From IMG/VR virus record IMGVR_UViG_3300048061_000193, positions 1-29,597 of that record: a DNA stretch of 29,597 nt. One strand, given 5' to 3'. The position numbers and the translations under genes are program-made. This document shows, in pieces, positions 1,213-27,967 of the stretch; position 1 is the stretch's first letter, and the number at the start of each line of letters is the position of its first letter. Source of the DNA: a virus. The notes beneath the pieces were generated by a model that saw only the letters and a program-made list of their open reading frames with translations, had not been told where the DNA came from and searched no databases.

Positions 1213-4200
1213 TTAAGATAGGGTAATGCCGTACTGGTTGGCGATGTTTGCTTCGATGGCAGGACGATTGGGGGACTGGTCGGAGTTGTAGATAATCATC
1301 TCCTTGGCCGTACCAGCAAACGCGTTGGCTGGTCGTCCGAACACATACGCAATAGTATTAGATGTATTCCCAGCGTCACCAGAAACAATACTTGTTCCGT
1401 TGCTAAAGATTTCGCTGCTTGCTCCGTTTGCGAGATATGTAGCAAGTATTTCTGTGCTAGGATGCGTTCCTCCTGCTAAAGAAACACCGTGGCTCATTAC
1501 ATATTGACCAGTGCCACGTCTACCAGCTGCAGGTAGTGAGCTTCCGCTATAAATAAAGCTTGAATTTACAGTAGCAGAATAAACGGAAAATGTGTTGTAT
1601 GGTTGCGTTGTTAGGCTTGTTGTTAAGACAAAAAAGTCATTAGTACCATCAAAATCAATAGCACCCAAGAACGCGTGAGGCTGACCAGATGTCACCTCGC
1701 CAACAATCTTAGGCTGATTCGCAGCAGTCGTCTGCTCCGCGTCATTGCCACTACCGCTCTGGTCGTACCAAGTCTGCACGAATCCGTTGACTGTATCGTT
1801 AGCAGCAGGGATGTCAGTAATGCTGTAGGTCTCACCGATGTTAGCCTCAATGGCTGTACGGTTGGCTGTTTGGTCGGAGTTGTAGTGAATTAACTCAGAA
1901 ATGTAACCTCTAGTATTATGAGTTGATACTACTACCTTACTGCCAATATAATACTGCGTAGCTGTCACCGTTGAAGCGTCTCCACTTCCATCAATCTCAT
2001 TGGTTCCGTTTCCGAAATAGTTAATATCCGCTGAACCCTCAATAATAGTGTGAAGGTTTAGGCTCTTCTGGAAGTCTATTCCAGCGGAATAAGAATCTGT
2101 GCCCGCTCCCGACTTGTAGCCATTTGTAAAGTCAGAGTTAATGCCAGCAATATAAAGAGATCCTAAGCCGTACAGAAGGGTAGAATTTCTCTTTTGAGCC
2201 GCATTACTACCTGCCGTAACATCATCTGCAAGCGGTTGCCAAGATGCGAAAAATGAAAACGAAGAACCTATATCCGCTGGTGATGTTAGGTATCTTTCGT
2301 CGCTTGAATCATCTGCGAATTTTATAGATGGCTTGTTACGTTTCTGGACAAGGCTGCCATTCACGACAATCTTAGGCTGCTTCGTAGGGTCAGTCTGAGT
2401 TGCGTCATTGGCTGGTGTACTGCCACTCTGGTCGTACCAAGTACTGACTGTACCATCCCGCGAGAAGGCTGCTAGAGAAATGTCGTAGTGATTAGCGATG
2501 TTCTCCTCAATGGCTCTGCGCTTTGTTGACTGGTCGGAGTCGTAGATGATTAGTTCTTGCAACCTCCCGTTAAATTGTCTTCCCGGGGTATCTTGGTCAT
2601 AACCAATCGTTGACTTACTTAGGGTGTTCGAGCCTGCGGTAGTCCAAGTATTTGTTACTGTCTCATTTAGGCTACCATTAACGTGAGTGGTTGAAGCTCC
2701 AGTCTTAATAACTAACGAATACAGAGACTTAGATGATGTTAGATTGTTACCACCAGAAAATACGTTTACAGCAGTATCATCACCATCATACCAAAGCGGG
2801 GTGAGCTTACTCGCAGTATTCCCATAGGCTACCGCAAAACCTCCATTTGTTGAATCAGATGAGTCAAATATAGTTCTAAGATTTGATGCGGTATTATCAT
2901 CAATGGAGGCAACTGTAAAGGCTCCGTATGTTAATGAGACTGGGCTAAAGCCAGTTATGTCAAGCTGTGTAGTTGAACCATCAAAATCAATACCACCAGT
3001 AACCAGATTCCCATCCTCAACAATCTTAGGCTGCTTTGCAGTATCCGTCTGCACCGCGTGATTGTCGCTGCCTGATTGGTCGTACCAAGTCCGAACGTGT
3101 CCGTCTGCTGAGGTCTGTGTCAGCGTGATGTTTGTGATAGATACATCGGCAACTGCTGTTCCTCCTGTGCGGAAGTAGATGCCCGATGTTTCGTCTGGAT
3201 TTAAAGTTACGGAATTAGAACCAAGAACTAACGATGTTTGCGCAAACGGGAGTGAGCTAGCCAGAGTTATACCAGAAAGACTGCCAGAAGTTAATACAAC
3301 ATCAAAGGTTGCAACATAAGTGCCTGCCCCTACGTCAGCTGGTGCTGCAAGGCGCTTAAACCCCGTAGAACCTTCATTATTAACCGAGAAGTCAAAGCTT
3401 GTTGCTGTCTCGTTACTAACATTGCCAGCGAGACCTCCAGACTCTGCCTGTAAATCCAGCCTATCAACATCCTCATTCACCCAATCCTCCAGCGTACCAT
3501 CAGCAACCTCGGATGCAGTAAAGGATTGGACTGCGTCATCGCTTGAACGGCGTGTCTGTACTACGTACTTGCCAGATGGAAGATATTCGGTGTCCCCAAG
3601 GCTTTCGTAGATTTTGATGTTGGATATATTCCCTTCCCACGGACCTTGTGCCCACAAAAGTAAAGTGCTACCACTGCCAGTACCCCACTCTCCAATAACA
3701 TCAATAGTCCCACTCCCACTTAGTTCCTGCTGGTAGACAATGTCCCCTCCCGCAGCAGACGTAGAAGACTGTGTGCCGAGAGCTATTACAAACACACCAC
3801 TTACATTTGTATCATAGGTCAGGGTTAAACGGCACTGTGCCCCATCGGGTATATCAGGTAATGACTTACCTGCGGTGAAAGCTGTCGCACCAGAACAATT
3901 CAGAAACCCATCAACTACAGACCATCCTGCGTTCAAGCTCCACCCATCAGTCCCAGCACTGAAGTCGGACTCATACTCAAGGGTATCACCAGCGTATTCC
4001 CACTGATTGGTTCCTAAGCTACGCAAGGAGTAAGCCGCTGCTGCTCCTGTAGCTTGGTCAAGAGGAAGCTCGTTCTCAGCGTATGAGATTACCTTTACGT
4101 TGCGGATGTAGATTACGTCGCCAGATGTTCCAGTGAACGAGACACTACTTCCATCTGCGTGTTGTATCCATAGCCTATCATTACGTGCTACCCCACTGGC

Positions 4201-4959
4201 GGAGTGTGACTCCCAAACATCGGGCGTTGGTGTAATTATTCCAGTGGATATACCTTCATACCCGCTTAAAACTCTAAACCCGTCTGTGCTTGTATTGGTT
4301 GAAGGAATTTTAACCTCAAATTCAACCGTATATGTTTTACCAATCACAAATGATGAACTCCTACTGGTATCGTGTGGACCAGTTGTTGCGTCACTGGTAA
4401 TAACAAGTTCACTAGATACAGCAGAAGTTGTGCTACCCCGCAGCCCAGTAAACCCATCAACCCCCTCACTGAAGTCACTTTCGTATATGACCTCCTCGCC
4501 CTTAACAAAACCCTCCAGCGTACCGTCAGTAACCTCGTCAGCGGTAAAGCCCTCGGTCTCTCCGTCCACGTTGCGGCGTACCTCTACAACGTCACCAGTG
4601 AAGTCCTCCTTCAGTTTACGCAGGGAGTAAGCGGCGGCTGCTTCAATCAAAGCACCATCGCGCTCACCTGTATTCGTGTCCAGTTCCCGAAGGTCAAGCG
4701 GCAGCGTAGGCTGCTCATTGACCCAGCGAGCCATCGTTCCGTCACTGACTTCAACAGATGAAAAGTCGCGCTCTGTATTGTCGCTCTCGCGGCGAACGCG
4801 AACAACTCTGCTCCCATCATCCCAGCTTTTAAGCCTGCGCAGCGAATAAGCTGCTGCTGCGCCCTCAAATTGATTGAGAAGCGGCGTCTTAACGCCAGAC
4901 AGCGCGACCGGAGTCACAACGCTGCTGACTACGTTGGAAACTTGATTGGAGCCAGTCAT
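1213..4959 (-). CDS. large repeat tail fibre / receptor-binding protein with LamG-like domains
   Basis: Protein of 1248 aa. Three copies of an AAAAYSLRxL module lie near residues 34, 108 and 306, each leading to a (V)RR-(S/N)-D and a DGT-(M/L) strand. Two beta-sandwich domains, each starting YESDFS, are inserted at about 158-300 and within the third copy (about 330-475). Then come three long repeats, each opening TWYDQSGS (about residues 625, 838, 1062), passing through QPKIV and FDG, and closing with (I/H)Y(D/N)SDQ...AIE-NI. The latter resemble LamG/concanavalin-like sugar-binding domains of phage adhesins. It probably binds host glycans. Confidence 0.8.
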   Translation of the reverse strand: MTGSNQVSNVVSSVVTPVALSGVKTPLLNQFEGAAAAYSLRRLKSWDDGSRVVRVRRESDNTERDFSSVEVSDGTMARWVNEQPTLPLDLRELDTNTGERDGALIEAAAAYSLRKLKEDFTGDVVEVRRNVDGETEGFTADEVTDGTLEGFVKGEEVIYESDFSEGVDGFTGLRGSTTSAVSSELVITSDATTGPHDTSRSSSFVIGKTYTVEFEVKIPSTNTSTDGFRVLSGYEGISTGIITPTPDVWESHSASGVARNDRLWIQHADGSSVSFTGTSGDVIYIRNVKVISYAENELPLDQATGAAAAYSLRSLGTNQWEYAGDTLEYESDFSAGTDGWSLNAGWSVVDGFLNCSGATAFTAGKSLPDIPDGAQCRLTLTYDTNVSGVFVIALGTQSSTSAAGGDIVYQQELSGSGTIDVIGEWGTGSGSTLLLWAQGPWEGNISNIKIYESLGDTEYLPSGKYVVQTRRSSDDAVQSFTASEVADGTLEDWVNEDVDRLDLQAESGGLAGNVSNETATSFDFSVNNEGSTGFKRLAAPADVGAGTYVATFDVVLTSGSLSGITLASSLPFAQTSLVLGSNSVTLNPDETSGIYFRTGGTAVADVSITNITLTQTSADGHVRTWYDQSGSDNHAVQTDTAKQPKIVEDGNLVTGGIDFDGSTTQLDITGFSPVSLTYGAFTVASIDDNTASNLRTIFDSSDSTNGGFAVAYGNTASKLTPLWYDGDDTAVNVFSGGNNLTSSKSLYSLVIKTGASTTHVNGSLNETVTNTWTTAGSNTLSKSTIGYDQDTPGRQFNGRLQELIIYDSDQSTKRRAIEENIANHYDISLAAFSRDGTVSTWYDQSGSTPANDATQTDPTKQPKIVVNGSLVQKRNKPSIKFADDSSDERYLTSPADIGSSFSFFASWQPLADDVTAGSNAAQKRNSTLLYGLGSLYIAGINSDFTNGYKSGAGTDSYSAGIDFQKSLNLHTIIEGSADINYFGNGTNEIDGSGDASTVTATQYYIGSKVVVSTHNTRGYISELIHYNSDQTANRTAIEANIGETYSITDIPAANDTVNGFVQTWYDQSGSGNDAEQTTAANQPKIVGEVTSGQPHAFLGAIDFDGTNDFFVLTTSLTTQPYNTFSVYSATVNSSFIYSGSSLPAAGRRGTGQYVMSHGVSLAGGTHPSTEILATYLANGASSEIFSNGTSIVSGDAGNTSNTIAYVFGRPANAFAGTAKEMIIYNSDQSPNRPAIEANIANQYGITLS

Positions 4960-4965
4960 TGGGCC

Positions 4966-5271
4966 TTACTGGAGCTTGGATGTCTTGAGGATGCCAGTGA
5001 TGACAATGTTAATGTCTGGAGAAGTCGCGCCAGATAGCGTTAAACGCAAATCCGCTTTTCCGACTTCAACATTAAGCGCACCATCTGCGGTGATTGTCGC
5101 TGCATCTCCAAGTGCATTGGTAGCGGCGAACCATGTAGTGCCGTTATCGTAGCTTAATTCAAACGCCAGGCTGCCACCGCCGAAGGTTCCGAATGCGCCA
5201 ACATTCAATTTTCCTTTAATTGGTAGCGTACCAGTCGAGCCGTTACTTGTGAGATTGTATGTTTGAGCCAT
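4966..5271 (-). CDS. small beta-rich virion protein, possible decoration
   Basis: Protein of 101 aa, Gly/Thr/Ala-rich and beta-predicted, without signal peptide. The pattern (FELSYDNGTTWFAATNALGDA) is that of a small virion decoration or fibre-associated domain. It has its own TTGACA promoter directly ahead of the largest fibre gene. Confidence 0.55.
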   Translation of the reverse strand: MAQTYNLTSNGSTGTLPIKGKLNVGAFGTFGGGSLAFELSYDNGTTWFAATNALGDAATITADGALNVEVGKADLRLTLSGATSPDINIVITGILKTSKLQ

Positions 5272-6452: not shown

Positions 6453-6671
6453 TTATCCTCCTAGCGCTCTTACTCTGGCTTCAAGTTGCTGAATCCGATC
6501 ATTATAGTCTGGCACGTTTATTGTCATGCCATCAGAGGATTTTTCAATATATGGCGAAGAGTCTGGCACGTTGGTCATTCTTATTCTGCTCAAAGTGTTT
6601 ACCTTGTCGATTAGTTGATTTATAATCGACAATCTTTTCGCCCATCCTGCTTTTGTTAATTTGCTAATCAT
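6453..6671 (-). CDS. small tail-associated protein
   Basis: Protein of 72 aa. Helical N-terminus (LSIINQLIDKVNTLSRI), and a C-terminal coiled coil (NDRIQQLEARVRAL). Probably a trimerising or connector element near the tail tip. The ATGA overlap with the previous gene supports it. Confidence 0.6.
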   Translation of the reverse strand: MISKLTKAGWAKRLSIINQLIDKVNTLSRIRMTNVPDSSPYIEKSSDGMTINVPDYNDRIQQLEARVRALGG

Positions 6672-7450
6672 TGTGCTTTTACTCTTATGGTTTTTTTCTC
6701 AAAAATATTTCCTTTGTAATGCCTAACATTACTCTCAACGATCAATTCTGTGCCGTTTGCAACGTAATTCATATAAGTAACACGACTTGGATCTGTTCCG
6801 GGAAAGTATATATAATTATAATAAGTATCACTCACATAATTTGCTTTACCTCCTACGAAGCCGGCTGATCCTAAATCGTAATAATATGTGCTTGGTGCTA
6901 TATACACTGAACCCCATTCGCCCAAAAGGGTAATGCTAAAAACAGTATCTGGATTTACATCAGTGCCGTTACTTGTGCTGATGTGGTAACTGTAACTAAC
7001 TTTAGATGTTACTGTTTTTGCCATAGATTTTCTGTAAACATTTGGCGCTTGATAATATTTTATATTTTCATCAAAGTTGTAATACCATCCTCTGTATTCT
7101 GGGAAGGTGTATGTGTATGAACTTTCCATGTATGTCACATTGGCTGGCTTTGTACCAAATGCCCGAGTAAATGTAATAAGTTCACCTTCATCTGATGAAA
7201 AGTTTTCGTCGCCCAAAAAATAAGCATTTGCATTTGCCGTAAATGGCAACTCAGTCAATCCTGCATTTGCTGCCGTATCCATTACTGCTGTAAATGCTGG
7301 CGCAGAATAATTCTCGCGCTTGCAACTGCATTTTATCTTGTACTCGACTGTTACATTATCCAATCGCTCTGAAAATGGATATTCAACCCATGCGTCTGTT
7401 GGCACGATTGCGGCAGCAGCCGTTGTATCTGATTCGTATGGAATGCTCAT
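6668..7450 (-). CDS. tail-tip protein, paralogue 2
   Basis: Protein of 260 aa, tandem paralogue of the 8247 protein. It has the same DAWVEYPF, CxC (IKCSCK), LPFTANANAYFLGDENFSS and HYKGNIFEKK blocks. The centre (residues 125-190) differs most, so the two may form a hetero-oligomer or bind different ligands. It is linked to both neighbours by ATGA overlaps. Confidence 0.6.
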   Translation of the reverse strand: MSIPYESDTTAAAAIVPTDAWVEYPFSERLDNVTVEYKIKCSCKRENYSAPAFTAVMDTAANAGLTELPFTANANAYFLGDENFSSDEGELITFTRAFGTKPANVTYMESSYTYTFPEYRGWYYNFDENIKYYQAPNVYRKSMAKTVTSKVSYSYHISTSNGTDVNPDTVFSITLLGEWGSVYIAPSTYYYDLGSAGFVGGKANYVSDTYYNYIYFPGTDPSRVTYMNYVANGTELIVESNVRHYKGNIFEKKTIRVKAQ

Positions 7451-8247
7451 TGCGCTTTAACGTAAATGTTCTTTTTTACAAAAATATTTCCCTTGTAATG
7501 CTCAACATCACTTTCTGCCAAAAGAAAAGTCCCACTGTTTACATATCCTAGATACGTTGAGAAAGTGGGATTTGTACCATAAAAATTAGCAGTTCCGATT
7601 CCCAAGTGATCTGATACATAATCAACATTATCAACGTATGGAATAGATGGATAATAAGTTGTATTAAATATACTATAAGCCCCACTTGATGCATATTGAT
7701 TTATTTTGAAAACTTGATCTGGCGATAATCCCAATCCTTTATCTGTTCTGTAATAATAGTTGTAAACAAATTTAGCTGCGGCTGCTTTTGTTTGTGGCGG
7801 TCTAATATTATGAACAGGCTTTGAGCTTCTTAAATTTATAAGGAATAAAATATCCCAAGAAACACCACCTCCTGAATGCCAAAAACCGCGATAGCCAGGA
7901 AACGTGTAATCGTAGCTCTGTTCGGCTAAAGTCCTAGTCTGCGGAACTGCTCCAAAGGTGCGCAAAAATGTAGTTGTGCCGCCCTCTCCGGAAGAAAAAT
8001 TAGAATCGCCGAGAAAGTATGCATTTGAATCAGCAGTAAATGGCAAATCGATCAATTTAGCTGCTGATGCGCTGCTCATTGTGTCGCTGTATGCTGGCGA
8101 CTCGTAATCTTCATTCCTACAGTTGCATCGGATCTTGTATTCTTTCGTCACAAGATCGTTTTGATCCTCAAATGGATATTCAACCCAGGCATCGATTGCT
8201 CTGATGTCTGCCCATTTGGTTGCGTCTGAATAATAAGGTAAAGTCAT
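7447..8247 (-). CDS. tail-tip protein, paralogue 1
   Basis: Protein of 266 aa, paralogous to the next gene. Shared blocks include DAWVEYPF near residue 20, a CxC pair (IRCNCR), LPFTADSNAYFLGDSNFSS near 70-90, TFPGYRG, and the C-terminal HYKGNIF-KK-I-VKAQ. I know of no family. Position after the tape measure suggests a tail tip or baseplate role. The pair is a tandem duplication. Confidence 0.6.
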   Translation of the reverse strand: MTLPYYSDATKWADIRAIDAWVEYPFEDQNDLVTKEYKIRCNCRNEDYESPAYSDTMSSASAAKLIDLPFTADSNAYFLGDSNFSSGEGGTTTFLRTFGAVPQTRTLAEQSYDYTFPGYRGFWHSGGGVSWDILFLINLRSSKPVHNIRPPQTKAAAAKFVYNYYYRTDKGLGLSPDQVFKINQYASSGAYSIFNTTYYPSIPYVDNVDYVSDHLGIGTANFYGTNPTFSTYLGYVNSGTFLLAESDVEHYKGNIFVKKNIYVKAQ

Positions 8248-17134: not shown

Positions 17135-18922
17135 TTAGCTTTTATCAGTATTATCTTGATTAGTAACACCGACTAGCCCTGCCATCGACGCGCAAACGAC
17201 TTGCATAAATTCACAGTCAGCCAAGTGATCGTCATGTGGCGATCGATTGATCCAATCATAAAACTCACTGCCGTCTGTTTTGCGCTGCCGCACAATCCGC
17301 GCCCAGGCATTGATCTGCTTTTCGTAAACCGGGCCAGCATCGTCCTCGTATGTCCACGCAGGTTCTGGATCTCGTATTGATCGAATCAGCGCGAGCGCAT
17401 TTTTCGCTTCCAGTTTGGAGAACCAGAATTGCCCCACAAATAGCTGATTGCCTGCGCCAGTGCCTTCCCATGCGTCAACGTACTGGATCGGAGAATACAT
17501 GCGATACAGCCCATCCTTGTGCCTGAATTGCTTCTTTTCGTCACCGCGCAGCATCATCCAGCCATTCTCGGCGCAAATGCGTCTGACTTGAGCAGTGTTG
17601 TAATTACCATCAAGAAACACCCGGCAGCCAACTTCTCGATCTAGACCGCCCTGCGGTATATTCCACTTGTCGCAAACATCTTTGATCTCTCCGGTCGATA
17701 GTGCCTTGCCCCAGTCAATGCCTCGCGTCTGTAGCTTGCCGTCAATCATTGCCCATGCGCGTATGCGCCAGTAGTAATGATCTTGCTGCACGTCAACTGT
17801 GCAGAACAGGAACTTGGCGTCCGGCCATGAGTCGCCTCGCTTGTATCCTCCGCATGCTTCTGGCACTTTGTCAGTGCTGACGTACTTTTTCTCATCCCAC
17901 GGCTCTGCGAGACGTTTACGAATAAAGTTCTCGATCCCGGTCAAGCTGCCGCGCTGGCGCTCTGCGCTCGCATCTTTCCAAAGCATGACAAGATCAGGCC
18001 ATGGGAAATGCGCAATCGCATTGTAATTGTAAAAATCAATCTTAGGATCGCCGTCTTTGTTTTGCTGAACATAGCGACCATCAATGTTGCGCTTTGCGAC
18101 TCGACCCGCGCTCCATGGCATCTTGCCATGGCATTTTTGACATTCGTAATAAATCGAATCAGTCAGTCGCTCTTTGTTAATCGTGCCGTCATCGTTGCGA
18201 ATTGATTCATCATCGCCCCAGCGCATACCACCGCGAGGAATCTGCCCGTCTTTCGTTGGCAGGCTCCAGACGTATGGGATCTCCTCGCCACAGCAGTCGC
18301 ACTTGATGTGCCAGACCTTCTGCGTCGACTTCTTCCAAAGCACGTCAAGCTCGCTGCCCTCGGTCTGCCCGGATGATGGCAGGAACATTGACCAGCTCCA
18401 AGGATAGGATGCCTGGCGGTCATGCACCTGCTCAATCCAGCCCTCGCCTTCCTCGTATGCCCAGGACTCGTCCATCGAGATGAACTTTAGCGTTTTCGAG
18501 TTACGATTAGCGAGAATCCGAGCTGACAGTAGACGGATGAATCCGTATGGCATGCCGGTGTAGAACTTGCCTCGACGATAGCCCTGCTCTGGAATCAGTC
18601 GAGTGATGGCCGTGGTATTGTCGATCAGTGGTGTAAATTTATCGTCAGAGAACTCTGCGATCGCCTCCTTGGTTAAATCGTAGTGCGCTGCGCGGCATGG
18701 CGATGTCTGCGCTTTGTACAGATGCAAAAGCTGCGCGGTCAACGTCTTGATGTGCTGCACTGATCCGATCAGTCCGACTGTGCCACCACGAATCTTTGCT
18801 GCTGCGCGCATCGGCTCAATCATCAGCGGATGATTGTTGCGATCGAATTGCCCATAATCCAGTGTGACGTTGCGCTCGCACCATGCGACTGGATCTTGAA
18901 TCTCTAACTCAAGTAGATTCAC
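17135..18922 (-). CDS. terminase large subunit (lambda GpA-type)
   Basis: Protein of 595 aa from GTG at 18922, which overlaps the small-subunit stop as GTGA; an upstream TTG would run into the small-subunit gene. Features include an N-terminal ATPase with the degenerate P-loop-like IGSVQHIKT, SMDESWAYEEGEG, a zinc-binding-like set (HIKCDCCGEEI ... YYECQKCHGKMPW), the nuclease strand LFCTVDVQQDHYY, and the C-terminal SPHDDHLADCEFMQ. It cuts concatemeric DNA and drives it into the prohead. The head gene order that follows is lambda-like. Confidence 0.9.
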   Translation of the reverse strand: MNLLELEIQDPVAWCERNVTLDYGQFDRNNHPLMIEPMRAAAKIRGGTVGLIGSVQHIKTLTAQLLHLYKAQTSPCRAAHYDLTKEAIAEFSDDKFTPLIDNTTAITRLIPEQGYRRGKFYTGMPYGFIRLLSARILANRNSKTLKFISMDESWAYEEGEGWIEQVHDRQASYPWSWSMFLPSSGQTEGSELDVLWKKSTQKVWHIKCDCCGEEIPYVWSLPTKDGQIPRGGMRWGDDESIRNDDGTINKERLTDSIYYECQKCHGKMPWSAGRVAKRNIDGRYVQQNKDGDPKIDFYNYNAIAHFPWPDLVMLWKDASAERQRGSLTGIENFIRKRLAEPWDEKKYVSTDKVPEACGGYKRGDSWPDAKFLFCTVDVQQDHYYWRIRAWAMIDGKLQTRGIDWGKALSTGEIKDVCDKWNIPQGGLDREVGCRVFLDGNYNTAQVRRICAENGWMMLRGDEKKQFRHKDGLYRMYSPIQYVDAWEGTGAGNQLFVGQFWFSKLEAKNALALIRSIRDPEPAWTYEDDAGPVYEKQINAWARIVRQRKTDGSEFYDWINRSPHDDHLADCEFMQVVCASMAGLVGVTNQDNTDKS

Positions 18923-19590
18923 AACTGGGCACCCTTTAAGTAATCGTCGGCAGAATCCTGCCAGGTGTCGCACATCCAATCCGGCACATTGATCTCGCCT
19001 GGTGTCTTGCGGACCTTGCTGAATCCGGCGAACAGTCTGCCGCCGAGAATGATTGGCTTTAAGAAGTTGTAAACCTGCTCTGGCGTATCCATGGCGCTGA
19101 TCTTCTCGCTCACCTGCTCGAGTATGCCTTCAATGCACGCATTGCCTGCATACGTTGATGCGCGAATGATCCGACAAACCTCGTCTCGCGAAAGCATCTC
19201 GCCGCGGTCCAGCCCGAGCTTCTTTGCATGGGCCTCAGCTTCGCGGATCTGCTTGTCGATCTTCAGATACGCATTAAGCGCGACCTTCTCGCGCTCCTCA
19301 TCCATCGCATCTTTTGCGGTCTGCAATTCTGCAAAATATTCATCGCGCAACTCCTCAGCCGTTTTGGCTTTTGACTTGTCTCGCTTTTTGAGCGGTGCAG
19401 GACTGTTTTCTTTTTTCCACTCGGCCACAAGGATCTTTGATTTAGTCGGCAGCTTGGCGCGACTTGAAAGCCACTCCATTGCAGCTTCATGGTTGTCATC
19501 CGGAAAACCCTCAGACAGCCAGTTGCGCATCGTGGGCACACTGCACCCATAAATCTTTGCGCGGCTTCCTAATGTTTTGCGATCTGGCAT
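18919..19590 (-). CDS. terminase small subunit (Nu1-like)
   Basis: Protein of 223 aa. Residues 5-30 form a helix-turn-helix (LGSRAKIYGCSVPTMRNWLS) that would recognise the packaging site. The middle is a charged helical region and the C-terminus probably contacts the large subunit. The position immediately before the large terminase, with a GTGA overlap, supports the call. The upstream region carries TTGAAT at -35 and several TGTAAA half-sites that may be operators of the RHH protein. Confidence 0.75.
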   Translation of the reverse strand: MPDRKTLGSRAKIYGCSVPTMRNWLSEGFPDDNHEAAMEWLSSRAKLPTKSKILVAEWKKENSPAPLKKRDKSKAKTAEELRDEYFAELQTAKDAMDEEREKVALNAYLKIDKQIREAEAHAKKLGLDRGEMLSRDEVCRIIRASTYAGNACIEGILEQVSEKISAMDTPEQVYNFLKPIILGGRLFAGFSKVRKTPGEINVPDWMCDTWQDSADDYLKGAQL

Positions 19591-19685: not shown

Positions 19686-19889
19686 TTATGTCCCGCGTTC
19701 ATACTGGTCGGCCCTGGCATGCGATGAACTGATGCTTTCAACAGCGCGAACGATCACATCTGCTCGCGTTGTCTTGTCTCGCTTCGCAGCAGCTTCGATC
19801 TGTTCAATCGTAATGATTGGCAGACGAAAGGTTGTCATCTTGCGTCTGCCTCGATGTGGATCTGAGTAATGTGGCGTTTCCTTGTCCAT
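19686..19889 (-). CDS. ribbon-helix-helix (CopG/Arc-type) transcriptional regulator
   Basis: Protein of 67 aa. RKMTTFRLPIITIEQIEAAA (residues 16-35) gives the beta strand and first helix, and KRDKTTRADVIVRAVESI (36-53) the second helix, of a ribbon-helix-helix DNA-binding dimer. I chose ATG at 19889 over the upstream TTG because the TTG is part of the -35 hexamer. Repression of its own promoter through the palindrome at 19891-19903 is likely. Half-sites TGTAAA/TTTACA at 19614, 19637 and 19671 suggest that it also acts on the packaging operon. Confidence 0.75.
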   Translation of the reverse strand: MDKETPHYSDPHRGRRKMTTFRLPIITIEQIEAAAKRDKTTRADVIVRAVESISSSHARADQYERGT

Positions 19890-19895
19890 GTTTAC

Positions 19896-19925
19896 ACTGT
19901 AAATGCGAATGACTGTCGCTGTCAA
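19896..19925 (-). promoter_or_regulatory. promoter of the RHH gene, leaderless, with operator over the -10
   Basis: TTGACA (19920-19925), an 18-bp spacer and TACAGT (19896-19901), which ends 6 nt before the ATG at 19889. The perfect palindrome TTTACA-C-TGTAAA (19891-19903) covers the -10 and the predicted start site, so a bound dimer would block RNA polymerase. Confidence 0.65.
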
Positions 19926-20122
19926 CTTTCAGAAGATTTGTCTCCATGCTGTATCAACCCCAGCCCCTCTAATTTTTTGAATCCCTTGGTCTTGCACTCA
20001 TGCAGGAATCTGTTGCGAGATACCATTGCCCGGAATTCTGCGTCAGTCTGTCTGGACTCCAAGAAATCTAAAACTGATGTGGACTCTGGCGGTCTGCTCA
20101 GATAACTGGCTTCCTCAATCAT
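19922..20122 (-). CDS. paralogue of the HTH regulator's N-terminal module (no DNA-binding part)
   Basis: Protein of 66 aa. Residues 18-62 align without gaps to residues 13-57 of the 173-aa HTH protein (24 identical of 45, including TxAEF, RN, ECK, KGF). The two helix-turn-helix domains of the longer protein are absent. If the shared module mediates self-association, this protein could bind the full-length regulator and block or retune it, as short dominant-negative forms do; that is inference. It has its own promoter and lies beside another small regulator. Confidence 0.65.
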   Translation of the reverse strand: MIEEASYLSRPPESTSVLDFLESRQTDAEFRAMVSRNRFLHECKTKGFKKLEGLGLIQHGDKSSES

Positions 20123-20129
20123 TGATATT

Positions 20130-20159
20130 TCTTTAATTACAAAAGCCCCGAATTGTCAA
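20130..20159 (-). promoter_or_regulatory. sigma70-like promoter for the 20122 gene, near-leaderless
   Basis: TTGACA (20154-20159), an 18-bp spacer and TAAAGA (20130-20135), which ends 7 nt before the ATG at 20122. The -10 is weak, but the -35 is exact and its distance from the ATG (37 nt) matches the set. Confidence 0.5.
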
Positions 20160-20260
20160 TGCACTTGCGACTCTTCTTTTTAAGTCACAAGCGACGACAC
20201 CCCACCTTGTCTTTGGATGACGACACCCGCCCTTGGTGGCGGTGTCGGCAGACAAAGATG

Positions 20261-20290
20261 GCGACGACATCTCTATATAGGTGTCGTCGC
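20261..20290. repeat. perfect 9-bp inverted repeat (hairpin) in the candidate origin
   Basis: GCGACGACA at 20261-20269 pairs perfectly with TGTCGTCGC at 20282-20290 across a 12-nt loop. The arms contain the GACGACA unit that is repeated nearby. No T-tract follows on the minus strand, so it is probably not a terminator. Confidence 0.6.
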
Positions 20291-20531
20291 TTTGTCGCTT
20301 ATTGCGTAACCCTTTGACTAGTAAACTATTGCGAAACATTTTGCTGCTTATTTTTTAAAATCGTGTCGTTTATTTTGTAAAGTGCTGACAGTTAAAGACT
20401 TTCGCAGTTATTAACAGACTCCTTTTTACATTTGTAAAATTCTTTTACATTCAGCGACACGACATGTCGCGACACATGTCGTTTTTTTTGTAAGTATTTG
20501 ATGTTTAATAATTTGCACGGCGACATGACTT

Positions 20532-22553
20532 TTATTTGTCCTTAATTACAGCAAAGATGTTTCCGGCAGTGATTCTGACCCTTTTTGCGTCCTTCAGCTC
20601 CTTAATGTAACGCTGAACAGTGCGCACAGTTACACCATGCTCATCCGAAAACTCGGCGTTAAAATCGGATGGATTTGCCCCTTCAGGTAGCCTCCGAACC
20701 AGTGCTTTATAGACCGTAGAAGCGCTCACTTTTTGCCCATGTTTGCGCAAACGATTTGCATCAAGATCGCCCCTGGATCTGAACAGTGGGAAGTCCCACT
20801 CGACTACAAATGGCTCGATGCCGCCAAAGTTTCTCAGCGCAGCATGCACAGTAAAACAGTTGTCCTCCTCGTGCGCAGTCAGACCCATAATGGTGTCTGG
20901 ATCGCGAGCAAAGACGCCAGATCCACTGATGCGATCGAGTGGGTCTTTCTCTGATTGATTGCCTTTTGAGTAGTGCGCGCCAAACGCTGCTGCCGCTCCT
21001 GTGCGCTCAACAAGCGCCTCAACTTCATTCATAAGCAGGCCCATATCGCCTGCGCTGTTTTCGTCGCGATCGCCGAGTGCTTTATATATAGGATCGATGC
21101 AAATGAGCGCCAGATTGTCATCTGCGACCTTTTCCTCCAGCGCAGCCAGAATCACCCGTAAATCGTTGCAAACGCCTCTGAGCGACCAAATACAAAGATT
21201 ACTCGGCACTTCAATGCCCATGGCATCGCATACACTTTTGACTCGCTGTAAGAAAAACTCATGCGGAACTTCAAAGTTAAGAAAGATGACGTCCTTGCCT
21301 GTATGTACACATTCGCGGCCGAACCATGGCGTTCCAGACGCAACGCATGCTGCAAGATTCAGCAACGTCCAGGTCTTGTATGACTTACTGCCGCCACCAA
21401 GCACCATCTTCGTCCCTCGGTGCAGCAGACCATCAATTAGCACAGGATAGCGCTGCATGATTCGCTTGCTCAAATCTGCCGGAATCTCATGCCCTCGCGT
21501 CCATTCTGGCAGCTTGCTAATCATCGCAGCTTTGCGCTCCTCGATTGGCGCATCATCTGGCACACTCGGATCTTGGAATGGATCTTTGCCATAAAAGTCG
21601 CGACCGCTCATTGTTGGCTCATTGTCGCCAAATTCTTCTGCGAGCGCGATTGTGGCGTTCTTAAAATCTCCACTGTATTCAAGTGTAGTTAGCAGCGAAA
21701 ATGCTGAATAGTTTTCTGAAGGCTCTAGCGGCGGCGCATTGTCGGTAAAGCAATAAAAACTGCCGTCAGTGCGAAGTGTCCCAGAAACTCCCCGCTCTTT
21801 GCCAGGTCGCGTGCAATGCGTCTCGCTGCTGTTGCCGTTGCCTATTTTCCATCCTGCTTGTGCGAGAATAGCAGCCGATCGCTCTCGGATGTCTGGCGCT
21901 GCCATGTAGCGATCTCCGATGCGATCTGAATCACCTGGAGCTTTGTGATGCTTTGGCTCATTAACAACTGGCGCGATTGGTAGCTCAATAGCATCTGGCC
22001 AGTAATGTGCCTCGCCGTCCATGCTCAAAAAGCATAAGCGCGCGATGTCCTTGCCGCTGTCATCTGCTTCGATGCCGTACATGTCATACATGTAAGCCTT
22101 GGCTGCTTGGAATGCTCGCAGATGATTTTCCGGATCTTGCGGTATCGCCAATATGACTTTTAATCCATTCCCAGATGGCGAAACAAATGCAGCGATGATG
22201 TAAAGATCGTCGCGCAGTCGATCAATAATGCCAGAAGCGTTTTCTACGCCGTCAAAGTCCATGCAGATCATCCCGGATGCTTCAATAAGCTCGGATGATC
22301 TGCGCTTGTTAAACGTACCGCAAAACAGCACGCCTGGCAGTCTGCGCTTTAGGTCGCTGGCTCGATCTTTGTCTCCTGCTGCGACTGCGACTCTGACTTC
22401 ATTGATGACGCTGGAGAATCTGCCTTCTCCTGTGCGAATCCACTTGATGATTTTTTCAAGCTCGTAGTGGTCTGTTTTGGTGTCCTGCGCGGAGGAGACC
22501 ACGCTGATGAGCCTAGATCCATATCCATTTGTTTCTCTCGTTCTAACTGGCAT
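20532..22553 (-). CDS. primase-helicase fusion (BT4734/VirE-type N-terminus, RepA-like AAA)
   Basis: Protein of 673 aa. Residues 15-140 resemble the BT4734/VirE-type primase-associated domain, with MICMDFDGV at 95-103 and FVSPSGNGLKVIL at 123-135. Residues 360-590 are a RepA-like hexameric helicase with Walker A GGGSKSYKT (386-394) and Walker B LALICIDP (481-488), then GAHYSKGNQSEKDPLDRISG. Residues 605-655 are a winged-helix-like DNA-binding end. It should unwind and prime DNA at the phage origin. The start is upstream of the VSSAQDTK core, so ATG at 22553 is the likely one. The repeat-rich region directly downstream is the natural candidate target. Confidence 0.85.
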   Translation of the reverse strand: MPVRTRETNGYGSRLISVVSSAQDTKTDHYELEKIIKWIRTGEGRFSSVINEVRVAVAAGDKDRASDLKRRLPGVLFCGTFNKRRSSELIEASGMICMDFDGVENASGIIDRLRDDLYIIAAFVSPSGNGLKVILAIPQDPENHLRAFQAAKAYMYDMYGIEADDSGKDIARLCFLSMDGEAHYWPDAIELPIAPVVNEPKHHKAPGDSDRIGDRYMAAPDIRERSAAILAQAGWKIGNGNSSETHCTRPGKERGVSGTLRTDGSFYCFTDNAPPLEPSENYSAFSLLTTLEYSGDFKNATIALAEEFGDNEPTMSGRDFYGKDPFQDPSVPDDAPIEERKAAMISKLPEWTRGHEIPADLSKRIMQRYPVLIDGLLHRGTKMVLGGGSKSYKTWTLLNLAACVASGTPWFGRECVHTGKDVIFLNFEVPHEFFLQRVKSVCDAMGIEVPSNLCIWSLRGVCNDLRVILAALEEKVADDNLALICIDPIYKALGDRDENSAGDMGLLMNEVEALVERTGAAAAFGAHYSKGNQSEKDPLDRISGSGVFARDPDTIMGLTAHEEDNCFTVHAALRNFGGIEPFVVEWDFPLFRSRGDLDANRLRKHGQKVSASTVYKALVRRLPEGANPSDFNAEFSDEHGVTVRTVQRYIKELKDAKRVRITAGNIFAVIKDK

Positions 22554-23265: not shown

Positions 23266-23283
23266 AGTGTTTGGATTGTTACT

Positions 23284-23415
23284 TGAGAGATTAACTCTCG
23301 GTTGATTTCGGCTGTAGTTTTGTCACAAGTTGAGGGGGGTAATTTTTGACAAATTTGGGTAGTTGACTGGCTAGTTTTGAAACAAATTTGGATGCTTTTT
23401 TGTCCCAAATTTAGG
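23284..23415. promoter_or_regulatory. repeat-containing control region upstream of the 23265 gene
   Basis: This non-coding stretch carries CAAATTTGG at 23350 and 23383, and CAAATTTAGG at 23406. Each is centred on a near-palindrome, with spacings of 33 and 23 bp, close to whole helical turns. Nearer the gene is an inverted repeat, GAGAG-ATTAA-CTCTC at 23285-23299. It looks like an operator or iteron array for the operon starting at 23265. Confidence 0.45.
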
Positions 23416-23788
23416 TCATTTTGGGTGTACTATTGTCACTAAATGTCCTCCAGTGACGTTGGTTAATTGGTGTTAAAATAAGAGACACCCCAGCGGCGAT
23501 CAACTCCGCTGCTCCCTGTTGTTTCAGGCGAGTAACCGTCACTTGCATTACTGGTTCGCTGTGCAGGCGAACGGGCCTACGTGGTGCAGCATATCCGATA
23601 AGAGGCAAGGATAGGATATAGGGTGAAGTGAAGCAGGAACGGACAGCGCTATCCTTTTCAGAGTACGGGTTCCCAAGGTTGCGAGTCTTTTGTGAAGTTG
23701 ACTCCCCGACCTCGCCTAAATGCCCGACCGCGAATCCGCAATCCTGCACACATTTAAGCCGTGTATCTACTCTGCCTGCTAAATTCAT
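23411..23788 (-). CDS. orphan 125-aa ORF, possibly overlying a structured RNA
   Basis: I do not recognise this ORF. It has 125 codons, a basic product, no visible domain or membrane segment, and no coupling to its neighbours. The DNA under it is rich in perfect short hairpins: GTTCGC/GCGAAC near 23555-23575, CAGCGG/CCGCTG at 23492-23512, GGTGT/ACACC at 23470-23490, and GAGTC/GACTC near 23682-23705. This could be a true gene or a non-coding structured element on either strand. Gene confidence is only moderate. Confidence 0.35.
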   Translation of the reverse strand: MNLAGRVDTRLKCVQDCGFAVGHLGEVGESTSQKTRNLGNPYSEKDSAVRSCFTSPYILSLPLIGYAAPRRPVRLHSEPVMQVTVTRLKQQGAAELIAAGVSLILTPINQRHWRTFSDNSTPKMT

Positions 23789-23809
23789 ATTTCTATAAGT
23801 CGTGGTTAA

Positions 23810-23949
23810 TCAGGAATTCTGCAATTCAGCTATCTCCTTGTGCAGCTCGGCATTTGCCTCGTGCATTTCGGCGAGCATCTTGCGCAGTTCAGCAAGCTGT
23901 CCCTTAGCTCCGCTATCTCGTCGTAGTTAGTTACTAGTGCTTCACTCAT
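23810..23949 (-). pseudogene. frameshifted coiled-coil ORF (or programmed -1 frameshift)
   Basis: ATG at 23949 overlaps the upstream stop and opens a 39-aa frame (MSEALVTNYDEIAELRDS...) that degenerates into Cys/Arg-rich sequence and stops at 23830. Moving one base back near the AGGGAC site (about 23895-23905) opens a frame that reads on to 23810 as a good heptad repeat (QLAELRKMLAEMHEANAE). The natural protein would be about 46 aa of continuous coiled coil. Either a G is missing from a G-run (mutation or sequencing error), or ribosomes shift. Confidence 0.5.
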
Positions 23950-24170
23950 AGTTCTGCTCTCCATAAATTAAAAACATCGCGATTGCTTTTGGTATCTTCG
24001 CCCCAGAACGCCTGCCGGAATATAATATCAGTCTCAGTGCTGTTAAAGTGCTGGCCGTTGTCATAGTGTTCCGTATCGACGATAAAGCGTAGAATCTTGT
24101 TCTCGCTGCGTAGTCTGCTGTTTTCCTCGGTCAATTTATCGACCAGATCTTGCTGTGTATGTTTTCCCAT
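23946..24170 (-). CDS. hypothetical protein with N-terminal coiled coil
   Basis: Protein of 74 aa. Residues 8-30 form a short coiled coil (LVDKLTEENSRLRSENKIL), followed by an aromatic-rich C-terminal part. Not recognised. It is in the small-ORF operon; its stop overlaps the next ATG (ATGA). Confidence 0.6.
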   Translation of the reverse strand: MGKHTQQDLVDKLTEENSRLRSENKILRFIVDTEHYDNGQHFNSTETDIIFRQAFWGEDTKSNRDVFNLWRAEL

Positions 24171-24339
24171 AGTTTATCTCGTTATCAATTTCGAGTCTGC
24201 TTGAATATTGGCACTGCATCGATGGAGCATCGTCCAATAAATAATCCAAGCGCTTTCTGTCTTTCCATAGTTCAAATATTAGCTGGCGCTGGTGAGTGTT
24301 TAACTCAATCAACTGCTGCTTTGTCAACTCAGCGCTCAT
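24136..24339 (-). CDS. hypothetical small helical protein
   Basis: Protein of 67 aa. The N-terminal half is helical and charged (KQQLIELNTHQRQLIFELWKDRKRL). No recognised family. It starts with an ATGA overlap on the HTH gene and overlaps the next gene by 35 nt, so it sits in a tightly packed set of small early ORFs. Confidence 0.6.
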   Translation of the reverse strand: MSAELTKQQLIELNTHQRQLIFELWKDRKRLDYLLDDAPSMQCQYSSRLEIDNEINYGKTYTARSGR

Positions 24340-24857
24340 TGCTTAATCAGTTTATGAGTCTTGTATGAGTATTTGTAACCAATCTCGGCGAGTCGCCTCT
24401 TGATCGCGCATGTTGTACACTTCATGCGATCCGCGACCTGGTTTATCGTCATATCCTTTTCGCTAATCATTTTTACAGCTTTAGCAACATTTACCTTGGT
24501 GGATCGTTTTGGATCGAGCTTGATGCCCTCTTTTTTCATCCAGTCGGAAATGCTTTTGTAAGATATGTTTCCAAGCGCTGCCCTGATGGCGTCCATTTTC
24601 ATCCCCTTCTCGATCATCTTAGCAGCCTTGTGCGCCATCTCTTTCTTTTGCTCGCTTGTGTAACGAGCGCCAGTGTTTCTTTTCTGCTTATCATTGCTGG
24701 CAATAATCCCCAGCTTTTTCATGCGCTCAAATCCTTTGCTTTTGCATTCAGCAAGTAATTTGTTGCGCGCGATCATTGCATCAAATTCTGCTTCAGTTTG
24801 ATGCTTCTGGAGCATATCCAGAATGCGCGTTGCTTCATTTTTATCAACTTCTGTCAT
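24336..24857 (-). CDS. helix-turn-helix regulator with duplicated N-terminal module
   Basis: Protein of 173 aa. Residues 13-57 form a module shared with the separate 66-aa protein at 19922-20122 (24 of 45 aligned residues identical by eye). Residues 66-112 and 122-160 each look like a helix-turn-helix of the homeodomain/recombinase type (MKMDAIRAALGNISYKSISDWM; MTINQVADRMKCTTCAIKRRL). It is probably a DNA-binding regulator of early or late transcription. It is coupled by ATGA overlaps on both sides. Confidence 0.65.
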   Translation of the reverse strand: MTEVDKNEATRILDMLQKHQTEAEFDAMIARNKLLAECKSKGFERMKKLGIIASNDKQKRNTGARYTSEQKKEMAHKAAKMIEKGMKMDAIRAALGNISYKSISDWMKKEGIKLDPKRSTKVNVAKAVKMISEKDMTINQVADRMKCTTCAIKRRLAEIGYKYSYKTHKLIKQ

Positions 24858-25617: not shown

Positions 25618-25911
25618 TTAATCAATAAGACCAGCCTCTTTGCCAATCTTATTGTAAATATTGCGATAAAAACGATCTCGCTCGATGCGCTTGTAATGGC
25701 GCTTCATTGCATGCGTAATCGTTGATCGTTCTCTGCCAAATTCTTCACTAATTGAAGCATCGGTTCTCGACATGAATTGCTTTGCCAAAGCATAGCATGC
25801 GTCCCGCACAACAACCAGTTCAGCCTTGCGGCATGAGCTTGATAGCTTTAATCGATCGCAGCCAGTTACTTCAGCCGCTACGTCGAGTAATTCTTTAATT
25901 GTGACAATCAT
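25618..25911 (-). CDS. stand-alone DnaA domain IV (DnaA-box-binding) protein
   Basis: Protein of 97 aa covering only the C-terminal DNA-binding domain of DnaA. The segment FGRERSTITHAMKR (about residues 58-71) corresponds to the DnaA signature GRDHTTVLHA, preceded by the helix containing RKAELVVVRDACYALAKQF. No AAA+ domain is present. In DnaA this domain reads 9-bp DnaA boxes, so the phage protein probably binds such boxes in its own genome (27900-27928) or competes with host DnaA. It is coupled by overlap to the nuclease gene. Confidence 0.8.
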   Translation of the reverse strand: MIVTIKELLDVAAEVTGCDRLKLSSSCRKAELVVVRDACYALAKQFMSRTDASISEEFGRERSTITHAMKRHYKRIERDRFYRNIYNKIGKEAGLID

Positions 25912-27899: not shown

Positions 27900-27967
27900 T
27901 GTGGATAACAATGCACACGTTATTCACCCGTACAAGTAAAAAGATGAAAAACTTTTTTCACTCATCC
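27900..27967. other. DnaA-box pair with AT-rich flank, candidate replication origin or DnaA-responsive regulatory site
   Basis: TGTGGATAA at 27900-27908 is a perfect DnaA box (TTATCCACA) on the minus strand. TTATTCACC at 27920-27928 on the plus strand matches TTATNCACA except at the last base. The boxes face each other with centres 20 bp apart and are followed by an A/T-rich tract to about 27960, which overlaps the end of the 27958 gene. The phage also encodes a DnaA domain IV protein (25618-25911). The box matches are visible in the sequence; origin function is inference. The site could instead regulate the lysis genes immediately downstream. Confidence 0.5.

Follow-up and report, generated by a model that had tools for sequence, protein, structure and literature searches.

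A CGACA repeat array behind the primase-helicase gene as a putative replication origin of a marine tailed phage

To our knowledge, the replication origins of most metagenomic phages are unknown. Among the described initiators that come closest to the locus treated here, SaPI Rep and SCCmec Cch2 are helicases of the AAA+/SF3-MCM kind, P4 alpha is an SF3 helicase, and RSF1010 carries iterons in the form of longer direct repeats. SaPI Rep and SCCmec Cch2 are reported to recognise iterons lying directly downstream of their own genes, and for Cch2 the role of the C-terminal domain in this recognition has been shown (PMC7581432). The origin repeats of P4 are bound by the winged helix of alpha, a single protein that binds, unwinds and primes, and that carries a Toprim primase (PMC4234260). 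The same source describes pRN1, which depends on a stem-loop of 100 nt situated 3′ of the gene for its primase-helicase, unconserved in sequence but kept in its fold; its authors find no specific binding of the initiator to the stem-loop, and a similar 3′ stem-loop has also been proposed for phage BIP-1 (PMC4234260). For AEP primase-helicases, including those fused to a RepA or a DnaB helicase, a C-terminal WH domain has been predicted to serve origin recognition (PMC5862659). In PLE, which are satellites in Vibrio cholerae, initiator-origin pairs are described as cognate modules whose iterons diversify under origin-directed nuclease attack between PLE and ICP1 (PMC8263062), and PLE RepA is characterised as a RepA_N initiator for which neither helicase nor primase activity is predicted (PMC7145576). 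Initiator helicases whose iterons follow immediately on their own gene are therefore already known, with functional precedents in SaPI, SCCmec, P4 and pRN1, and our searches of the open-licence literature, on iterons beside phage primase-helicases and on Sfi21, found these precedents and no report on the phages considered below.

The stretch analysed here, referred to as the window, is a virus record of 29,597 bases whose two ends have a 127-base direct repeat in common, so that it is probably a complete circular assembly. Its assigned genes are on the − strand. We propose that the gap at 20123..20531, which follows directly 3′ of the primase-helicase gene (20532-22553, −), is quite probably the replication origin of this 29.5-kb marine tailed phage, and that it would be recognised by the primase-helicase encoded directly upstream in the reading direction. 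The first ORF downstream of the gap encodes 66 aa (19922-20122, −) and is followed by an RHH-like ORF (19686-19889, −; RHH by eye, with weak PHROG regulator matches), a probable small terminase subunit named from its position and without a Pfam match (18919-19590, −), and the large terminase subunit of GpA type (17135-18979, −). Neither nucleotide relatives among named phages nor a host or prophage could be found, the search in the GTDB genome collection giving 64 pattern-matching stretches with no relative among them.

Several features of the surrounding genes were recorded along the way. The 66-aa ORF is like the N-terminal part of a 173-aa HTH protein (24336-24857, −), as judged by eye, and in the locus L034 a small similar ORF lies just upstream of the helicase (4797-4994). 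The RHH-like gene has a sigma-70-like promoter (19889-19925 in the window, − strand; 620-665 in L018) whose −10 box is very near the ATG, so that the transcript may be leaderless, and which in the window is overlapped by the palindrome TTTACACTGTAAA (19891-19903). The roughly 1 kb that separates the HTH gene from the small gene preceding the helicase (23266-24335) holds one ORF only (125 aa, 23411-23788). A 97-aa protein (25618-25911, −) consists of DnaA domain IV only (Bac_DnaA_C, E 3.6e-9) and may act on host DnaA as a decoy or a regulator; a single DnaA-box match occurs in the window, at 27900, which is at chance level or fewer, and no cluster of such boxes was found. Among the structural genes, two neighbouring ORFs (260 and 266 aa; 6668-7450 and 7447-8247, −) begin alike and look like a tandem duplication, and a 1248-aa protein (1213-4959, −), probably a receptor-binding or tail protein, has several ‘WYDQSG’ repeats, which we take to be LamG-like.

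The gap itself holds 13 copies of CGACA on both strands within 409 bp. Its 2000 dinucleotide shuffles gave 1.07 copies on average and 7 at most, and in none of them did a 5-mer with more than two letters reach 13. Outside the gap, no window of this size in the genome exceeds 4 CGACA. Scored by exact words, the gap is the strongest 7-mer cluster of the genome by a narrow difference (13.6 vs 13.3) and stands out more clearly for 6-mers (21.3 vs 13.3). Twelve units read [AG]CGACA (7 with A, 5 with G) and one reads CCGACA; because A and G first letters are mixed (7/5), the array is less uniform than those of the relatives. The original prediction had placed the repeats in a 350-bp gap at 20180-20530, which does bear the features, although the true intergenic gap runs from 20123 to 20531 because the 66-aa − strand ORF begins at 20122. 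It had also named GACGACACC-type units in both orientations; these occur exactly, at 20193 and 20219 (+) and at 20280-20288 (−), but the unit that is enriched is the shorter CGACA.

Two long stems anticipated at 20221-20247 and 20261-20290 were located exactly there. The first is a hairpin of the form CGACACC-CGCC / GGCG-GTGTCG, that is, an iteron, a GC stem and an inverted iteron, and a similar hairpin plan is found in the relatives L128, L124 and L011, whose hairpin in a reverse search returned those three contigs only; the second pairs two inverted units, GCGACGACA and TGTCGTCGC. Both lie, together with five CGACA units, in an imperfect stem-loop block of ~104 nt (20189..20292) closed by the arms AAGCGACGACACC and GGTGTCGTCGCTT, which are 13 nt long, 100% complementary and 78 bases apart. 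The AT-rich stretch, likewise foreseen, covers 60 bp from 20322 (20322..20381) with 75% AT, within the top 0.24% of 60-bp windows, and is a candidate unwinding element between two iteron blocks. The second block (20454..20482) comprises the palindromic ACGACATGTCGCGACACATGTCGT and its flank, with five overlapping or abutting CGACA units and a T-tract on the + strand, and an outlying unit GCGACA (20520..20525, +) adjoins the helicase stop codon. Folded as ssDNA, positions 20185-20310 reach z = −5.18 and the whole gap z = −4.52. GC skew and GC3 skew have no switch at the gap and give no signal for or against an origin, on which they cannot decide because the genes lie on one strand.

The good folding energy of the stem-loops would also suit a transcription terminator, attenuator or structured RNA placed after the helicase gene, all the more as one stem does carry a T-tract: contrary to the original prediction that no T-tracts follow the stems, the palindrome at 20459-20482 runs into TTTTTTTT (eight T) on the + strand. 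As the assigned genes run on the − strand, this palindrome is unlikely to act as the terminator for a phage gene. With the T-tract on the gene-free strand, no family found in an Rfam scan of the window, and same-word direct repeats that are kept alike within each phage and that RNA pairing would leave unexplained, we hold such an RNA function to be highly improbable.

The primase-helicase combines domains that would fit an initiator. Its residues 68-184 match BT4734-like_N (PF08800) with 83.3 bits against a curated Pfam cut-off of 22.4, and residues 370-532 match AAA_25 (5.9e-27, above the Pfam cut-off); residues 20-199 also resemble the NCBIfam CRISPR-associated primase-polymerase type B (E 2.7e-18), at 66 bits far below its 200-bit cut-off. 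By sequence, no solved relative of the helicase was found at E 0.001. The best solved match of the family profile is RSF1010 RepA (1g8y, E = 0.0067), in agreement with the RepA-like helicase first suggested for this gene, and the corresponding protein of Roseobacter phage CRP-823 matches RSF1010 RepA at 1.2e-4. The last 74 residues (600-673; 20532..20756, −) are confidently predicted to form a winged helix (pLDDT 87.9, in a model built on a 12-member alignment), which we propose as the reader of CGACA. Its best structural matches, among many winged helices, are SarX (Z 9.6) and the archaeal MCM C-terminal domain (Z 8.9), and since they are at the level of the general fold only, they weaken the role of a DNA reader; the P4 winged helix is absent among the structural matches listed for this domain, which excludes nothing, and the relative L128 has an HTH_11 match just under its cut-off. 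The model of the full-length protein is poor (mean pLDDT 58.3), its Foldseek matches being general RecA-fold proteins and noise. We know of no biochemical datum for any protein of this primase-helicase family.

The family of the window's helicase was scanned in 18 contigs, comprising the window and a further 17 whose best segments are 55-65% identical. Between the window and its 99% relative L001, 6 positions of the gap differ, none of them within the 65 bases of the CGACA units, so that the repeats, whose loss in relatives would have spoken against the original prediction, are kept. An array is visible in 13 of the 18 contigs, 12 of these with a GACA-core word, and is absent in the other five up to the contig end, 1.1-3.5 kb downstream. 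In the window, L128, L124 and L125 the GACA-core array follows immediately on the 3′ end of the helicase gene; in L114, L116, L117, L119, L121, L122, L123 and L127 it is found 1.2-4 kb further downstream. A general rule that the array lies directly behind every relative's helicase was rejected, as it fails for L002-L010, where a TGTCA array lies further off or the contig ends too early. The first letter of the unit varies between phages, with ACGACA/GCGACA counts of 6/0 in L128, 0/5 in L124, 0/5 in L125, 10/0 in L121 and 10/0 in L127, against 7/5 in the window; L128 and L124 share their hairpin plan with the changed letter present on both arms, and the iteron copies within one phage change in concert. 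The one exception among the 13 arrays is L126, with the word TTTCCCG directly 3′ of its helicase gene and the most diverged C-terminal domain (23% identity to the window and 15% to L125, with a core at 58% to the window, the same as L125). Most members are 23-39% identical to the window in the C-terminal domain vs 58-66% in the core, the near-identical L001 aside, and L128 shows no extra C-terminal divergence (66/66). Judged from these alignments, the repeat word goes with the helicase family, the outlier word belonging to the member with the most diverged C-terminal domain, and the relatives apparently keep the arrangement of the array and respell its repeats in step with the DNA-reading end of the protein.

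An array of this kind might instead be an operator, in which CGACA binds a transcription regulator, either the RHH-like protein (19686-19889) or the helicase winged helix acting as a repressor, and controls the downstream late genes. RHH-like genes, recognised by eye, do come next after the array in the window, L018, L034, L036 and L041, inspection by eye shows sigma-70-like promoters behind the arrays in L011, L124 and L128, and winged helices, which also have roles in transcription and in protein contacts, are common repressors. However, L011, L124, L126, L128, L007 and L010 have no RHH gene next to the array but one shared 89-aa ORF, and in the named phages the gene in this place is annotated as resolvase, RusA or hypothetical, the primase-helicase being what all have in common. 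The array word does not follow the next gene either, because L126 with its TTTCCCG has the same 89-aa neighbour ORF, and in the window a promoter-like site belonging to the RHH gene itself is found about 200 bp off (19925-19896). Taken together, the operator seems to us an unlikely account of the array, and an origin read by the helicase the better one.

Similar arrays of other words occur directly 3′ of primase-helicase genes in further families: CTATCGG x10 (L043), GTGTATG x10 (L108), CTACAAA x11 (Roseobacter phage CRP-823, L131), GGCACCT x8 (L103), ACGAAAA x8 (L139), GTGAATA x7 (L030), and AGGGACA x6 in Streptococcus phage Javan406 (L134). Within the L034 family, L034 and L054 have three direct copies, of differing words, at intervals of ~78-83 bases, and in a thirteen-member alignment the register is conserved, with a GC hairpin in between. 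The 3′-end position holds across the architectures BT4734+AAA_25, PriCT_2+AAA_25, Zn-ribbon DnaG+AAA_25 and BT4734+PriCT_2+DUF5906. A short GC palindrome of the form CCC-nnn-GGG was also noticed near the last iteron in the L034 family, L131, L128, L124 and L043, the iteron words of which are unrelated.

How special this position is was counted in 31 groups, non-redundant at 80% helicase identity and represented by the member with the longest downstream flank, after exclusion of loci with a truncated helicase (L012, L090, L093, L105, L109, L129, L130) and contig duplicates, and with L003-L011 swapped for larger copies. A 350-bp window at the primase-helicase 3′ end beats all distant windows of its locus in 16 of the 31 groups, with 2 ties and 0.81 expected, whereas in the control the strongest repeat site falls at other ORF ends in 3/282 cases. 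Because the groups depend in part on one another, no binomial figure is used for this count. In a ranking of ORF ends alone, that of the helicase comes first in 19/31 loci, one of them trivially (L101, without other ends). In the remaining 15 groups the helicase end is not strictly first; these include the 2 ties and 2 with an array kilobases away, the array of L125 ranks behind a run of ACTACTA, and no array is seen in L144, L145, L146 and others. The score uses exact 7-mers, so that diverged repeats are missed, as in L136, which fails with visible repeats. Group representatives may also miss what other members have: L036 fails for the 22-member L034 group, yet 11 of the 22 have their top cluster at the helicase end in the redundant scan, and the groups of L046/L106 and L124/L125 contain passing members in other scans; that earlier redundant scan placed the top cluster at the helicase end in 27/50 loci. 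Of named phages, 70 records had a match and 16, spread over organisms and chosen before their arrays were viewed, were taken; they form 14 groups, of which 7 pass, 2 tie and 5 fail.

With terminase genes nearby, the array could also be thought of as a packaging signal (pac/cos) recognised by the terminase, whose genes are 0.5-1.4 kb further downstream. Terminase ends, however, are the top repeat site in 0/34 cases (1 tie), and the terminase relatives L018 and L020, whose TerL is 87% identical to that of the window, with ~73% DNA identity over the gene before it, do without the window's array; in the corresponding position they have repeats of different words, TTGAATGTTATACATGCC and ATTCATA. 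In the L018 record the helicase, which is also BT4734-like and has its AAA_25 match below the cut-off, is encoded at another place. An 87% identical terminase accompanied by another helicase and other repeats counts for an origin read by the helicase, and packaging is, of all the alternatives, the one we find least probable.

A further possibility is that the hairpins serve for priming or strand conversion, as ssiA/ssiB do in RSF1010, with initiation taking place elsewhere in the genome. The fusion of a RepA-like helicase to a primase domain and the stable stem-loops speak for it, as does the comparison of pRN1 with RSF1010 drawn in PMC4234260. Yet L043 has mostly direct iterons and folds poorly (z = −0.41), from which it follows that the shared feature is the repeats and not the hairpins, and the window has neither a DnaA-box cluster nor a second repeat cluster as strong. 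Priming sites apart from the origin are thus, in our estimate, quite unlikely.

As in the original prediction, the comparisons are best fitted by an origin that the neighbouring fusion protein with its RepA-like helicase would recognise, in view of the persisting arrays, their 3′ position and a RepA-like helicase with a predicted winged helix. We infer that the C-terminal winged helix would bind CGACA units in both orientations, in two blocks flanking the AT-rich stretch, and that the bound protein would assemble the RepA-like helicase ring as the AT-rich DNA opens. The exposed strands could then fold into the iteron stem-loops, at or near which the N-terminal BT4734-like primase domain would lay the first primers, and the fused winged helix would replace a separate iteron-binding RepC of the RSF1010 type. 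Whether many tailed phages carry such an origin as a plug-in cassette, in which a winged-helix reader and its array are respelled into mutually blind pairs, with the RepA-like (SF4) helicase of the window recognising its own origin, is in our judgement an evenly balanced matter. If the rule holds, finding the repeat array that follows a phage's primase-helicase gene would amount to finding its origin, and the array word would predict the specificity of the adjoining winged helix. The pair of L128 (ACGACA) and L124 (GCGACA) makes both DNA recognition and the concerted respelling of multi-copy sites testable. Given the iteron diversification under nuclease attack described for PLE and ICP1, the same pressure may act on these phages (PMC8263062).

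The known precedents temper the significance of the locus and also show where it differs. A helicase domain, a predicted winged-helix fold and an array directly downstream, which characterise the functional class of SaPI, SCCmec and P4, are all present in the window. With SaPI and SCCmec, as described in PMC7581432, it shares an initiator helicase, a C-terminal DNA-binding domain, here a putative one, and short iterons directly 3′ of the gene, but its helicase is of the RecA-fold RepA-like (AAA_25) type, fused to a BT4734-type primase, and belongs to a tailed phage. It differs from P4 alpha in its BT4734-like primase, its RepA-like helicase and its iteron word. The likeness to pRN1 ORF904, as that plasmid is presented in PMC4234260, extends to an AEP-type primase, a helicase, a C-terminal winged helix and a stem-loop of ~100 nt 3′ of the gene, whereas pRN1 is described there with an SF3 helicase and no iteron structure, and the window has repeated CGACA units and a RepA-like helicase. 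As its helicase is AAA_25, RecA-fold and RepA-like, we do not file it in the families of P4 alpha, SaPI Rep or pRN1 ORF904. RSF1010 resembles it in the RepA-like helicase, the iterons and the hairpins, but its RepA, RepB′ and RepC are given as three separate proteins (PMC4234260), in contrast to the one fusion of the window, and the modules of PLE sit in satellites and not, as here, in a phage. What appears to be new, against the open-licence literature searched, is the class of the helicase, its fusion to a primase, the 5-base unit that recurs within stem-loops, and the way in which reader and array are respelled in parallel from one phage family to another.
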